A stretch of 8,734 nt of DNA from positions 1 through 8,734 of the forward strand of contig JAGUYV010000481.1 of NCBI GenBank assembly GCA_020061125.1, read 5' to 3'. Position numbers and translations under genes: made by a program. Positions 1,881 through 7,433 of this stretch are shown here, piece after piece (positions within the stretch are counted from its first letter, which is position 1; every line of letters starts with the position of its first letter). Below the pieces are notes generated by a model. The model had not been told where the DNA came from and did no database searches. It saw only the letters and a program-made list of their open reading frames with translations. The DNA is from a bacterium (GTDB lineage Bacteria; UBP15; UBA6099; DSWB01).

Positions 1881-1936
1881 CAGCGCCCGGACCTTGACGC
1901 GGCCTCGTGGCCGCGGGGATCTTCGAGCCGTTCATC

Positions 1937-2440
1937 ATGAAATGTCCCTACTGCGGAAACCAGGAAGACAAGGTCATTGACTCGCGCAGCATCAAAGGTG
2001 GCGAAGCCATCCGCCGCCGCCGCGAGTGCCTCAAGTGCGGCAACCGCTTCACCTCGTACGAGGAAATTGACGAAGTCGTGCGCATGGTGGTGAAAAAGGA
2101 CGGCCGGCGTGAGCCGTTCGACCGCGCCAAGATCCGCGGCGGCCTGCTCAAGGCCGTGGAAAAACGCGAAATCCCCATTGACCGCATTGAGCGCATCGTG
2201 CACGACATTGAGGCCGAGGTGTTCCGCGACCGCGCTGAAGTGCCCACCCGCGACATCGGCGAACTCGTCATGCATATCCTGCATGAACTTGATGAAGTGG
2301 CTTATGTGCGCTTCGCCAGCGTGTACCGCCAATTCAGCGACATCACCGAATTCATGAACGAACTGAAAACCATGCTCGGCAAACCCGGCAAAGCCCCGGA
2401 TCTCCCGGACAGCAAACCCCGCAGGGAAGACAGCGAATAA
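1937..2440 (+). CDS. nrdR: Transcriptional repressor NrdR
   Basis: This 167-residue protein is the nucleotide-sensing repressor of ribonucleotide reductase genes; it oligomerises with ATP/dATP and binds tandem NrdR boxes. It starts MKCPYC, the invariant start of the family, which fixes the ATG at 1937 over an in-frame GTG at 1907. The zinc ribbon uses Cys3, Cys6, Cys31 and Cys34, with the basic RRRREC stretch (residues 26-31) that contacts DNA. An ATP-cone domain follows at about residues 47-139 (VVKKDGRREPFDRAKI through VRFASVYRQF). The last 25 residues are a polar tail, making the protein slightly longer than usual. A ribosome-binding site is poor, so translation may depend on glyA transcription or on upstream ribosomes. 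Its predicted targets lie just downstream, in front of nrdJ. Confidence 0.97.
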   Translation: MKCPYCGNQEDKVIDSRSIKGGEAIRRRRECLKCGNRFTSYEEIDEVVRMVVKKDGRREPFDRAKIRGGLLKAVEKREIPIDRIERIVHDIEAEVFRDRAEVPTRDIGELVMHILHELDEVAYVRFASVYRQFSDITEFMNELKTMLGKPGKAPDLPDSKPRREDSE

Positions 2441-2631: not shown

Positions 2632-2647
2632 ACACCACAGATTGTTA
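2632..2647. promoter_or_regulatory. NrdR box 1 upstream of nrdJ
   Basis: The 16-mer ACACCACAGATTGTTA matches the NrdR-box consensus acaCwAtATaTwGtgt at 11 of 16 positions. Alone it would be weak, but its centre is exactly 31 bp from the centre of the much better box 2, with 15 bp between the two sites. This is the known arrangement of paired NrdR boxes on one face of the helix. Confidence 0.75.
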
Positions 2648-2669
2648 TTTAATTTAAAATGGGTACAAT
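2642..2669 (+). promoter_or_regulatory. Candidate nrdJ promoter P1, overlapped by both NrdR boxes
   Basis: TTGTTA (2642-2647) and TACAAT (2664-2669) are separated by 16 bp. The -35 lies in the right half of NrdR box 1 and the -10 in the left half of box 2, so bound NrdR would directly block polymerase. The start would be near 2676, leaving a leader of about 220 nt. Confidence 0.45.
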
Positions 2670-2678
2670 ATATTGTGG
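2663..2678. promoter_or_regulatory. NrdR box 2 upstream of nrdJ
   Basis: The 16-mer GTACAATATATTGTGG contains the perfect palindrome ACAATATATTGT (2665-2676) and matches the NrdR-box consensus at 13 of 16 positions. nrdR itself is the preceding gene and a ribonucleotide reductase gene follows, so the regulator, site and target are all present locally. Confidence 0.88.
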
Positions 2679-2895: not shown

Positions 2896-5361
2896 ATGCC
2901 TCACAACGCAAACCAGATGGATTTTTCGAGCGCCGATGGAGGGAATGGAGCCACGAAAACCGCCCGCAAACAGTCCGCGGCCAAGGATGCGGTTCTGCCG
3001 GGACTGGAGACGCCCATGCCCGCGCCCGCGCGCATGGCTCTTCGCATGCCTTCGGGTCTCGCTGCCATCAGCGACAACGCACGCAAAGTGCTCGAACGCA
3101 GATATCTTAAAAAAGACGACAGCGGCGCGGTCATCGAAACCGCCGAAGACATGTTTCGACGCGTGGCCAACAACATCGCGCAGGCCGACCGCATCTACGA
3201 CGCGGGCGCGGACATTAAGAAAACGGAAGACATCTTCTTCAATCTCATGTCCAGCCTGGACTTCATGCCCAACTCGCCCACACTCATGAACGCGGGCCGT
3301 GACCTGCAGCAGTTGTCCGCGTGCTTCGTGCTGCCCATCGAGGACAGCATGGAGGACATCTTCGACACGGTCAAAAACACCGCGCTGATCCACAAGTCCG
3401 GCGGCGGCACCGGGTTCAGCTTCTCACGGTTGCGGCCCCGCAACAGCCGCGTGCGCAGCACCAAGGGCGCGTCCAGCGGCCCGGTGTCGTTCATGTCCGT
3501 GTTCAACAGCGCCACGGAAATCATCAAACAGGGCGGCACGCGCCGCGGCGCCAACATGGGCATTCTGCGCGTGGATCACCCCGATATCCTCCAGTTCATC
3601 AGGTGCAAGCAGGAAGACGGACGCTTGAGCAACTTCAACATCTCCGTGGCCCTGACCCAGGAGTTCATGGACGCGGTGGAGCAGGGCACGGCCTACAAGC
3701 TGCGCGACCCGCGCGACGGCCGCATCACCAGCGAGCTCGACGCGCGCGAAGTGTTCGACCTCATCGTCGAGATGGCGCACGGCAACGGCGAGCCGGGCGT
3801 GATCTTCATTGACCGCATCAACGAGAACAACCCCACGCCGCACATCGGCGCCATCGAGAGCACCAACCCCTGCGGCGAGCAGCCCCTGCTCCCTTACGAA
3901 TCCTGCAACCTCGGGTCCCTGAACCTGTCCCATTTCGTCACCCCGGAAGGCGCCGTGGACTACGCGCGCCTGGGCGAAGTCGTGCATCATAGCGTGCACT
4001 TCCTGGACAATGTCATAGACATGAATTCCTACCCGCTGGATAAAATCGCGCTCATGACCAAGTCCAACCGCAAGATCGGCCTGGGCGTGATGGGGTTCGC
4101 CGACATGCTCATCATGATGGGCATCCCCTACGACAGCGAGGACGCGTACAGCATCGGCAGGCAGGTCATGCAGTTCATTGACGAAGAGTCCAAGGCTGCG
4201 TCCCGTGAGCTGGCGCGCGAGCGCGGGCCGTTCCCCAATTTCAGGGGCAGCAAGTACGACGAGCCGGGCGCGGCGCCGATCCGCAACGCCACCACCACCA
4301 CCATCGCGCCCACGGGCACCATCTCCATCATTGCGGGCTGCTCCTCGGGCGTCGAGCCATTGTTCGCGGTGTCCTACACCCGCACGGTCATGGACAACGA
4401 CGAGCTGGCCGAGGTGCATCCCCTGTTCCGCATGGCCTGTGAGCAGCGAGGCGTGTATAGCAACAAGCTCATGATGGACATCGCCGAGGCGGGCAGCGTG
4501 CGCCATGTGGACCAGGTGCCCGAAGACATGCGCAAGCTCTTCGTCACCGCGCACGACATTACCCCCGAGTGCCACATCCGCATGCAGGCCGCGTTCCAGA
4601 AGCATGTGGACAACGCGGTTTCCAAGACCGTGAATTTCCGCCACGACGCCACCATTGACGATGTGGAAACCGTGTACCGGCTGGCCTATTCCCTCGGGTG
4701 CAAGGGCGTCACCATTTACCGTGACGGCAGCCGCGAGAACCAGGTGCTGGCCGTGAATAAAGACGCCAAAGAGGCCGCACCCGCCGCGGCGCCCCAGCCC
4801 GCACAGCCCTCCGCGCTGTTCAGAGTGGACGAGCGCGGCTATCATGTCCCGCGTGAGCGCCCCTCTGTGACCAAGGGCCGCACAGAGCGCATTATCACCG
4901 GCTGCGGCAATCTCTATGTAACTATCAACGAAGACGAAAACGGCCCGTGCGAAGTGTTCACGCAGATGGGCAAGAGCGGCGGCTGCGCCGCGTCCCAGTC
5001 CGAGGCCGTGTCCCGTCTCATTTCCCTGTGCCTGCGCTCGGGCATTGACCCCAAGCAGATCGTCAAACACCTGCGCGGCATCCGCTGCCACACCCCGTCC
5101 TGGCAGAACGGCGGCATGATCATGAGCTGCCCCGACGCCCTGGGCCTGGTCATGGACCGCTATCTGCGCTGGGCCGAAAAGAATCCCGCCGAGGCCGCGG
5201 CCCCGGAACAGCAGCAGTCCATGGCGGCCATGGCCGAGAAGATCAGTTCCACGCTCGAAGCGCGGGACCAGATGGTGGGCGCCTGTCCGGATTGCGGTGG
5301 GGCCGTGGAGCACGATTCCGGGTGCATTGTGTGCCGCATCTGCGGGTTCTCGAAGTGCTGA
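2896..5361 (+). CDS. nrdJ: Class II (adenosylcobalamin-dependent) ribonucleoside-diphosphate reductase
   Basis: This 821-residue enzyme reduces ribonucleotides to deoxyribonucleotides using a radical made from adenosylcobalamin, so it needs neither oxygen nor a separate radical subunit. Cys143 (LSACFVLP) and Cys337 (ESCNLGS) form the expected reducing pair, and NPCGE at 324-328 supplies the Asn, thiyl-radical Cys326 and Glu of the active site, with the same spacing as T. maritima NrdJ. IAPTGTIS (470-477) is a conserved phosphate-binding loop. An Ala/Pro-rich linker (about 610-655) leads to a TSCPD domain (about 664-765) and a C-terminal Cys-rich ribbon with Cys797, 800, 810, 813, 816 and 821 at the very end. 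No N-terminal ATP-cone is seen, so overall-activity inhibition by dATP is probably lacking and control may rest on NrdR. The ATG at 2896 has AAGGAG nine bases upstream. The next gene starts 28 bp after the stop. Confidence 0.97.
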   Translation: MPHNANQMDFSSADGGNGATKTARKQSAAKDAVLPGLETPMPAPARMALRMPSGLAAISDNARKVLERRYLKKDDSGAVIETAEDMFRRVANNIAQADRIYDAGADIKKTEDIFFNLMSSLDFMPNSPTLMNAGRDLQQLSACFVLPIEDSMEDIFDTVKNTALIHKSGGGTGFSFSRLRPRNSRVRSTKGASSGPVSFMSVFNSATEIIKQGGTRRGANMGILRVDHPDILQFIRCKQEDGRLSNFNISVALTQEFMDAVEQGTAYKLRDPRDGRITSELDAREVFDLIVEMAHGNGEPGVIFIDRINENNPTPHIGAIESTNPCGEQPLLPYESCNLGSLNLSHFVTPEGAVDYARLGEVVHHSVHFLDNVIDMNSYPLDKIALMTKSNRKIGLGVMGFADMLIMMGIPYDSEDAYSIGRQVMQFIDEESKAASRELARERGPFPNFRGSKYDEPGAAPIRNATTTTIAPTGTISIIAGCSSGVEPLFAVSYTRTVMDNDELAEVHPLFRMACEQRGVYSNKLMMDIAEAGSVRHVDQVPEDMRKLFVTAHDITPECHIRMQAAFQKHVDNAVSKTVNFRHDATIDDVETVYRLAYSLGCKGVTIYRDGSRENQVLAVNKDAKEAAPAAAPQPAQPSALFRVDERGYHVPRERPSVTKGRTERIITGCGNLYVTINEDENGPCEVFTQMGKSGGCAASQSEAVSRLISLCLRSGIDPKQIVKHLRGIRCHTPSWQNGGMIMSCPDALGLVMDRYLRWAEKNPAEAAAPEQQQSMAAMAEKISSTLEARDQMVGACPDCGGAVEHDSGCIVCRICGFSKC

Positions 5362-5389: not shown

Positions 5390-6340
5390 ATGGCGCAAAA
5401 TGTGATTTCCGTCAAAGGGCGGGAAATTCCCGTCAACATCACCATCGAGCGGCGAAACAACGCCACCGTGCGCTTCGGCAAAACCGGCGTCAACATTCGC
5501 ATTCCCGGGCATGTTTCCAGAAAAGACAAGAAAGCGTTGCTAAAACAGTTCACGGCCTGGGCGCGCGCGGAGTTGCAGGCCAATCCGCAACTTTTGGCCC
5601 AATACCACATCTCTCCCCCCGAATACCGCGAAGGGGCCATGCTACGCATCAGGGGCCAGATCTTCATTCTGCGCAAATTTATTGTGAACAAAAAGACCGG
5701 CGCGGCGTGGCTTGACGGCGATGAATTGCTGTCGCCCGCGGAAGCCCGGCTTCGGGGCATCCAGTCTCCGCCAGTGAACATTCTCATGGAACTGCCCGCG
5801 CATTTTTCCGATGACGAGCGCAACGAAATGGCGGACGGTCTGATCAGCCTGTGCATGGGCGACTTCTTCATAAACGAAATTGCCGGCCGGGTGCGCGAAC
5901 TCAACGACCGGCATTTCGGCCACTGCATCCGGTCCGTGCGCCTCAAGAATGTCAAAGCGCGCTGGGGCAGTTGCTCCGCGGCTGGTAACCTGAACTTGAG
6001 CACGCGCCTTTTGTGCGCTCCGCCCGAAGTTGTGGACTATGTCATCATTCACGAACTGGCGCATGTGGGCCTGTACAATCACTCGAAAAAATTCTGGGAC
6101 CGCGTGCGCGAGGTCATGCCCGATTACATGGTTCACAGCCAATGGCTCAAAGACAACGGCGAGAAATGCTCGTTCGAGCAGTGCATCTGCGGGTATGCGC
6201 CGCCCGTGCGCGCCGCCGCATGCGCACGCCATGATGCCGATGATGCCGCTCCGGCCGCTTCTCCGCGGCAGGACGACGCGCAGGAACCGCCACCCGGTTA
6301 CATAGAACGGCAGATATCGCTTTCCTTTGATTTTGAATAG
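5390..6340 (+). CDS. YgjP/DUF45-family zinc metallopeptidase-like protein with C-terminal clamp-binding-like motif
   Basis: This 316-residue protein belongs to the YgjP-like (DUF45, PF01863) family, part of the same zincin clan as SprT and WLM proteases. The N terminus has the usual beta-rich start (IERRNNATVRFGKTGVNIRIP region, 23-43). The family core follows: RWGSCS (191-196), then HELAH (221-225) with His221 and His225 as zinc ligands, Glu222 as catalytic base, and His231 of NHSKKFW as third ligand. Cysteines at 260, 265, 267 and 278 follow the domain. Residues about 272-307 are Ala/Pro/Asp-rich and probably disordered, and the protein ends with QISLSF at 308-313, which fits the bacterial sliding-clamp-binding consensus. 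Substrate is unknown; E. coli YgjP has been reported to act on UTP rather than peptides, so protease activity is not assured. It is probably co-transcribed with nrdJ. The ribosome-binding site is modest (GGGGGCGAG, 5372-5380). Confidence 0.9.
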   Translation: MAQNVISVKGREIPVNITIERRNNATVRFGKTGVNIRIPGHVSRKDKKALLKQFTAWARAELQANPQLLAQYHISPPEYREGAMLRIRGQIFILRKFIVNKKTGAAWLDGDELLSPAEARLRGIQSPPVNILMELPAHFSDDERNEMADGLISLCMGDFFINEIAGRVRELNDRHFGHCIRSVRLKNVKARWGSCSAAGNLNLSTRLLCAPPEVVDYVIIHELAHVGLYNHSKKFWDRVREVMPDYMVHSQWLKDNGEKCSFEQCICGYAPPVRAAACARHDADDAAPAASPRQDDAQEPPPGYIERQISLSFDFE

Positions 6341-6362: not shown

Positions 6363-7433
6363 CTACGGGGTGCGGTGCGACGCCGCGGGAGCGGGTTCGC
6401 CCGCGCGCTCGTGCGCGCCGCACACTTCGCGCACAAACCCGAGCATGGATGCGATCATGTCCCGCGCGAACAGGAAGATGCCCACATGGCCGCAGGGCAG
6501 CCAGGTCACCCGGGTCACGCCCCATTGTGCGGTGATGCGCTCCACATTGTCCGCGGGAATCAGCAGGTCGTAACGGCCGGCGATGTAGTGGATGCGGTCC
6601 GGAGACAGGCGCGGCGCGAAGCTCGAAGGGGTGATGATGCGCCAGGCGTCTTCGGCCATGTCCGGGGTCACGCCTGCGGCGTTGAAATCGCGGATGATGG
6701 TGCGGCCCACCACGCTGTCCCACATGCCCCGGATCAAGTCTCCGCCGGCGATGATGGGGATGGCGAAGTCAATGCGTGAGTCCGCGCACAGCACCAGGCC
6801 CGTGATGAATCCGCCGAGGCTGAACCCGCTCACGCCCACGGGGCCGCTGTACCGGGCGCGCGCCCAGGTGATGAGGGACCGCACATCGCACACGGACTGG
6901 CGGAACGCGGCCACGGTCTGCTCCAGATCTCCGTTCAGCATCAGATCACCGTCCGCCGTGCCTTTGGGCCTGCGGCTGCCGTGGTAGGGCTGGGTCATCA
7001 GAATGCAGGTCACGCCGCTGCGGGCCAGAATCCAGCCGAGCAGCCAGTGGTAAGGCGTGTGCACGCCCCATTCGCGCCAGCCGTGCATGAGAATCAGCGC
7101 GGGCGCGGCCGCGCCCCCGTGCATGGCCCGCGCCTCGAACACGCGCCCCGTGACCGTGTCGTTGCACGCGTGCTCCGACTGCGATTCGCTCCGGAACTCA
7201 TAGTCGAAAATACGGATGCCGCCGCGCGAGCGCTCGTTCGACGGCTTCATGTCCGGCGCGGCCAGCCCGCGGTCGTAGAACAGTTCCGGGCGCTCGAAAT
7301 ACTCGGGCCTGTTGCATTCGGACAGGTCCGTGTTCGCGCTCAACATGGGGGTGCGCGCGCTGACTTTGTGCTCCAGGCCCGTGACAAGAATGTCTATGGC
7401 GTTTGCGATGAATTTGAGGAGAGCCTGCAGCAT
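6363..7433 (-). CDS. Alpha/beta hydrolase family protein, substrate unknown
   Basis: This 356-residue protein has the alpha/beta hydrolase fold. The oxyanion-loop motif LMHGWREWG lies at about 115-123, and the nucleophile elbow GFSLGG places Ser205. Asp289 (GRYDLLIP) and His316 (CGHVGIF) complete a catalytic triad. Esterase, lipase or peptidase activity is possible; nothing nearby tells which. There is no clear signal peptide, and the N-terminal helix (LLKFIANAIDILV) is amphipathic or weakly hydrophobic. The frame stays open upstream to a Met at 7598, but I chose the Met at 7433: an extended -10 promoter at 7482-7490 would start transcription near 7475, so earlier codons would not be transcribed from it, and GGAAAG (7450-7445) serves as a weak ribosome-binding site. 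The C terminus ends in an Ala/Pro-rich tail. It converges on the metallopeptidase gene with only 22 bp between stops. Confidence 0.85.
   Translation of the reverse strand: MLQALLKFIANAIDILVTGLEHKVSARTPMLSANTDLSECNRPEYFERPELFYDRGLAAPDMKPSNERSRGGIRIFDYEFRSESQSEHACNDTVTGRVFEARAMHGGAAAPALILMHGWREWGVHTPYHWLLGWILARSGVTCILMTQPYHGSRRPKGTADGDLMLNGDLEQTVAAFRQSVCDVRSLITWARARYSGPVGVSGFSLGGFITGLVLCADSRIDFAIPIIAGGDLIRGMWDSVVGRTIIRDFNAAGVTPDMAEDAWRIITPSSFAPRLSPDRIHYIAGRYDLLIPADNVERITAQWGVTRVTWLPCGHVGIFLFARDMIASMLGFVREVCGAHERAGEPAPAASHRTP

Follow-up and report, generated by a model that had tools for sequence, protein, structure and literature searches.

The 8,734-nucleotide stretch of DNA analyzed here (the window) comes from a bacterium of the UBP15 lineage and carries, in the order glyA, nrdR, nrdJ, and ygjP, a group of genes that ends with an open reading frame for a 316-residue zincin of the YgjP type. 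The features of this region are collected in Table 1. The initial annotation placed ygjP directly behind nrdJ, and this position in the nrdJ operon was confirmed: the nrdJ stop codon and the ygjP start codon are separated by 28 bp, and neither a promoter-like nor a terminator-like site was found in this gap on the + strand. A candidate NrdR operator precedes nrdJ. Its downstream box was identified by pattern (0.12 sites are expected per window) and its upstream box by eye, and the distance between them fits the spacing of paired NrdR boxes. We infer from this arrangement that ygjP is likely expressed together with the ribonucleotide reductase gene. Another palindromic sequence resembling an NrdR box, ACACAACATGTTGTTC, is present at positions 456-471, between an upstream reductase gene and glyA. 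On the other side of ygjP, a convergent gene for an alpha/beta hydrolase ends at 6363, which is 22 bp beyond the ygjP stop codon.

Table 1. Positions of the genes, motifs, and candidate regulatory sites in the window
Feature	Position	Strand	Basis
nrdR, ATP-cone repressor of ribonucleotide reductase genes	1907..2440	+	PF03477, PF22811
Candidate NrdR operator before nrdJ, boxes ACACCACAGATTGTTA (2632-2647) and GTACAATATATTGTGG (2663-2678), 31 bp apart	2632..2678	+	
nrdJ, class II ribonucleotide reductase	2896..5361	+	PF02867, PF00317, PF12637
YgjP-like zinc metallopeptidase	5390..6340	+	PF01863; AlphaFold2 core pLDDT mostly >85 in residues 11-70 and 161-260
RWGSC motif, residues 191-195, N-terminal to the zincin helix, conserved among YgjP proteins	5960..5974	+	Columns invariant or nearly so in alignments A1 and A2
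HELAH zinc-binding/catalytic motif, residues 221-225	6050..6064	+	H221, E222, and H225 invariant in A2
H231, conserved third histidine	6080..6082	+	Invariant in A2
Cys/His cluster C260-x4-C265-x-C267-x10-C278-x2-H281, between domain and linker	6167..6232	+	pLDDT ~52 or lower from residue 261
A/P/D-rich linker, lineage-specific extension beyond the usual YgjP end	6176..6310	+	pLDDT <50 over residues 267-314; homologues usually end 30-45 residues past HExxH
QISLSF, hexameric sequence like a beta-clamp-binding motif, residues 308-313	6311..6328	+	Matches Q-phi-x-[LM]-x-[FL]; 1/560 sampled genes
Acidic terminus DFE, Asp immediately after the motif	6329..6337	+	

Residues 174-255 of the protein match the Pfam family PF01863 (YgjP-like, DUF45) at 4e-34, with a score of 118.9 bits (cut-off, 26). 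No SprT-like family matched the 316-residue protein, given that the Pfam scan at an E value of 0.001 returned PF01863 only, and searches of NCBIfam and PADLOC gave no match. The previously proposed zincin core, with HELAH followed by a histidine at 231, is found at exactly these residues in the translation of the open reading frame, and by analogy with the family H231 is likely the third zinc ligand. The protein shares with other PF01863 members the domain itself, the RWGSC and HExxH...H motifs, a beta-rich N-terminal part, and the C-terminal helices. However, it differs from them by a 54-residue extension that carries a clamp-like motif, whereas its relatives usually stop a few residues past the domain.

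An AlphaFold2 model built from a 30-row alignment gave high confidence for most of residues 11-70 and 161-260, with the blocks of the catalytic core at pLDDT values of 86-98. When this model was used in a Foldseek search, archaeal minigluzincins were returned first, followed by Wss1. VIA-align Z scores were 11.2 for abylysin, 11.0 for selecase, 7.9 and 7.8 for SPRTN, and 7.7 for Wss1; values below 8, as for SPRTN and Wss1 here, are not decisive and may reflect a common arrangement, and a match in fold is not a match in function. As judged from the model, the core is a minigluzincin whose nearest eukaryotic structures are those of SPRTN and Wss1. The archaeal minigluzincins (abylysin and jannalysin/selecase; Z of 10-11) are the nearest solved structures overall, but they are single domains of ~105 residues that lack both the tail and the N-terminal part of the window protein. 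SPRTN (6mdw, 6mdx) and Wss1 (5xbn, 5jig) share its catalytic zincin fold with ~16-22% identity over ~95 residues. Unlike these proteins, the window protein has no Pfam SprT-like match and no ubiquitin- or p97-binding parts, and its motif is of the beta-clamp type rather than the PCNA type.

The C terminus of the protein reads ...GYIERQISLSFDFE, and the QISLSF sequence lies three residues before the end. Beta-clamp-binding motifs take the form Q-phi-x-[LM]-[FL] or Q-phi-x-[LM]-x-[FL], where phi is aliphatic (PMC11139829, a 2024 review), and QISLSF matches the hexameric consensus given there at all positions. What the initial annotation said of this tail was accurate with respect to the coordinates of QISLSF, its agreement with a clamp-type motif, the composition of the stretch preceding it (the last 54 residues include 11 A, 7 P, and 6 D), and its flexibility, since residues 267-314 are predicted to be disordered. 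The motif and its flanks read IERQISLSF-DFE. The tail of Escherichia coli Pol IV (MERQLVLGL) likewise has ERQ ahead of the core of a hexameric motif, and the disordered C terminus and acidic end of the window protein are further points of likeness. The window motif differs from that of Pol IV in having Ile at position 2 and in being carried by a peptidase, not a polymerase. The Asp immediately after the motif has a counterpart in Pol III alpha. The cluster of C260, C265, C267, C278, and H281 could, more speculatively, form a small extra metal site.

Codon usage clearly supports the reading frame of the core, whereas the tail is only weakly coding-like. In the tail, the frame outscores its two shifted alternatives by 18.5 and 4.7 nats, yet one reverse frame exceeds it by 7.3. 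Furthermore, GC3 in the last 13 codons is 0.38, which is at the level of the lowest 2% of genes. The C-terminal extension may be young.

We then asked how readily such an ending arises in this genome. The background set consisted of the window and 100 contigs of the same genome (862 kb), in which a simple gene caller based on codon usage yielded 560 complete genes. The pattern Q[LIMV]x[LM](x)[FL] occurs within the last 15 residues of only one of these 560 genes, that of the YgjP-type protein. From the density of the motif across the proteome, 0.0014 such C termini are expected per protein; with ~2,970 genes, this amounts to about four in the genome by chance. The match is thus notable for this particular protein and yet, by these motif counts, too common to stand alone. 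True C-terminal clamp motifs in E. coli number only a handful (Pol II, Pol IV, and Pol III alpha; PMC11139829). Set against about four chance matches, this number suggests that a bare C-terminal match is roughly an even bet between true and accidental.

The host replication proteins appear suited to such an interaction. DnaE has a canonical clamp motif, QASLF (within GQASLFGDDF), at the usual internal place. In alignments with known clamps, the host DnaN has STDGHRL, DPRAFMGG (with the DPR arginine), YPNYEKV (P-x-Y-x-K-V), and a C-terminal VLMPIKM, and most of the peptide pocket is conserved. Relative to the E. coli pocket, R152, H175, P242, V247, and M362 are kept, and L155 and R246 conservatively changed. 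As further potential users of such motifs, a DinB-type polymerase (PF00817) and MutS (PF00488) were sought in the host genome, which is 79% complete, and neither gave a match.

If the motif were functional, the terminal QxxLxF might be expected to persist in orthologues, as had been proposed, and the genomes compared gave this expectation no support. No orthologue was found among seven genomes of the phylum, where a single other genome has a YgjP match (L034) that is short and different, and the motif is absent from more distant homologues. A scan of genome contigs with the protein sequence recovered only two distant relatives, both without tails.

To broaden the comparison, PF01863 was searched in 386 genomes spread across phyla, in the order and phylum to which genome G158 belongs, and in the G361 and G141 phyla (392 genomes for the latter), and a viral scan was added. 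A home-made HMM was used to locate the domain in 249 distinct YgjP C termini, which are not a random sample because some were picked for their long open frames and some are phage loci, a choice that favors the finding of tails. These proteins continue past the domain for a median of 6 residues, and 8 of them do so for at least 30. Clamp-like C-terminal ends occur in 2 of the 249 (L158 and L173). In L158, QVRLSF is the ordinary end of the domain. In L173, a Pro-rich disordered tail of 38 residues has QGSLF as its final five residues, and the start of the gene abuts the stop codon of an exonuclease III gene (PF03372; locus at L215:1372-2975). A congener (L213) has the same pair of exonuclease III and ygjP genes, with upstream proteins that are 64% identical, and its YgjP protein ends in a 21-residue tail without a clamp motif. 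Given that the tail is rare among the 249 proteins and the motif is missing in L213, the clamp motif is not a family trait. Its occurrence in YgjP proteins is sporadic, which is often true of short linear motifs and always true of chance matches. Viral YgjP proteins were not found in an initial scan, and a profile scan identified 34 in phages (L237-L270, on IMG/VR contigs), none of which has a clamp-like end. On the basis of the survey of 249 C termini, we rejected a family-wide enrichment of clamp motifs.

Several other features of YgjP-like genes were observed in these searches. At the loci of alignment A3 from the sampled genomes, the gene immediately preceding the YgjP-like gene encodes type I restriction HsdR domains in 36 of 98 cases, and a large subclass of YgjP zincins is located in type I restriction operons. 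Two small genomes have YgjP-like genes with four and six in-frame TGA codons (G249:C1:817699-818301 and G376:C1:821377-821979, respectively), which suggests that TGA may be read as an amino acid in them. Finally, a 381-residue protein at L103:6706-7849 (- strand) has a pentameric clamp motif of canonical form, SQLNLFDTP, in its interior.

Because almost no relatives share the clamp-like ending, it may be either a new adaptor or a product of chance. We consider binding of the clamp by the QISLSF tail to be plausible, with the prospects evenly divided. The fuller proposal, in which a YgjP-type minigluzincin is tethered to DnaN by its tail motif and made together with NrdR-controlled nrdJ, is held at a shade under even confidence. 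In its favor are the consensus match and flanks, the DnaE motif and DnaN pocket, the predicted disorder, the fold shared with SPRTN and Wss1, the QGSLF ending of L173, and the nrdJ/NrdR context. Counting against it are the lack of conservation in orthologues, the rarity of the tail among the 249 relatives, the absence of the motif from L213, the roughly four chance matches, and the weak coding signal of the tail. These last observations bear on a competing account, to which we assign a substantial probability that nevertheless falls somewhat below one half. According to this account, the protein is an ordinary YgjP peptidase with a low-complexity tail, produced for example by loss of the original stop codon in GC-rich DNA, whose end fits a loose motif with no link to the clamp. 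The rate of clamp-like ends in the family (2/249) is not clearly above that in the genes of the host genome (3/560), the QVRLSF of L158 demonstrates that such an end can arise at an ordinary domain boundary, and the tail takes up the room that remains before the convergent gene. However, chance must also accommodate a match at every consensus position and in both flanks, the extreme terminal placement of the peptide in a disordered tail, and the QGSLF ending of another long-tailed YgjP protein.

The operon shared with a ribonucleotide reductase could also mean that the enzyme acts on nucleotides as a housekeeping partner of nrdJ in deoxynucleotide synthesis and that any clamp motif is incidental. 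Some enterobacterial records do annotate YgjP as a nucleotide-acting enzyme, as in a table entry that lists Salmonella ygjP as a UTP pyrophosphatase in nucleotide metabolism (PMC12783615, table). No test of UTP pyrophosphatase activity was found in the literature searched, and the fold and motif are of the zinc peptidase type. We regard this explanation as very unlikely.

If the peptidase is instead tethered to DnaN, it would be made alongside the NrdR-controlled class II reductase, during deoxynucleotide supply for replication or repair. In this lineage, the gene would have acquired the sequence for a disordered C-terminal tail that has RQISLSFDFE as its last residues. Most likely, Q308, I309, L311, and F313 would dock in the DnaN peptide pocket, D314 would sit near basic residues beside it, and the flexible linker would hold the peptidase to the clamp on DNA undergoing replication or repair.

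SPRTN also joins a protease to a flexible tail that carries a sliding-clamp box. The analogy with SPRTN made in the initial annotation survives in part: the zincin fold near SPRTN and Wss1, the disordered tail, and the clamp motif speak for it, but the Pfam scan gave no SprT-like match and conservation of the motif is not supported. That the protein acts as a SPRTN-like crosslink protease at replication forks is a minority reading that we judge unlikely, and the step from clamp binding to cleavage of DNA-protein crosslinks draws on fold resemblance and gene order. An independently built bacterial counterpart of SPRTN, in which a clamp-tethered YgjP minigluzincin, made together with ribonucleotide reductase, frees DNA of proteins at forks or sites of repair, is a little more unlikely still. 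The literature searched yielded neither a report of a bacterial metallopeptidase being recruited to the replication clamp nor a study of what YgjP does. If these proposals are true, this architecture would have had at least two separate origins, with QISLSF behind nrdJ and QGSLF behind exonuclease III. A clamp-tethered YgjP, if real, would have converged on the arrangement seen in SPRTN and would provide a concrete, cheaply testable link to the replication-coupled removal of DNA-bound proteins.
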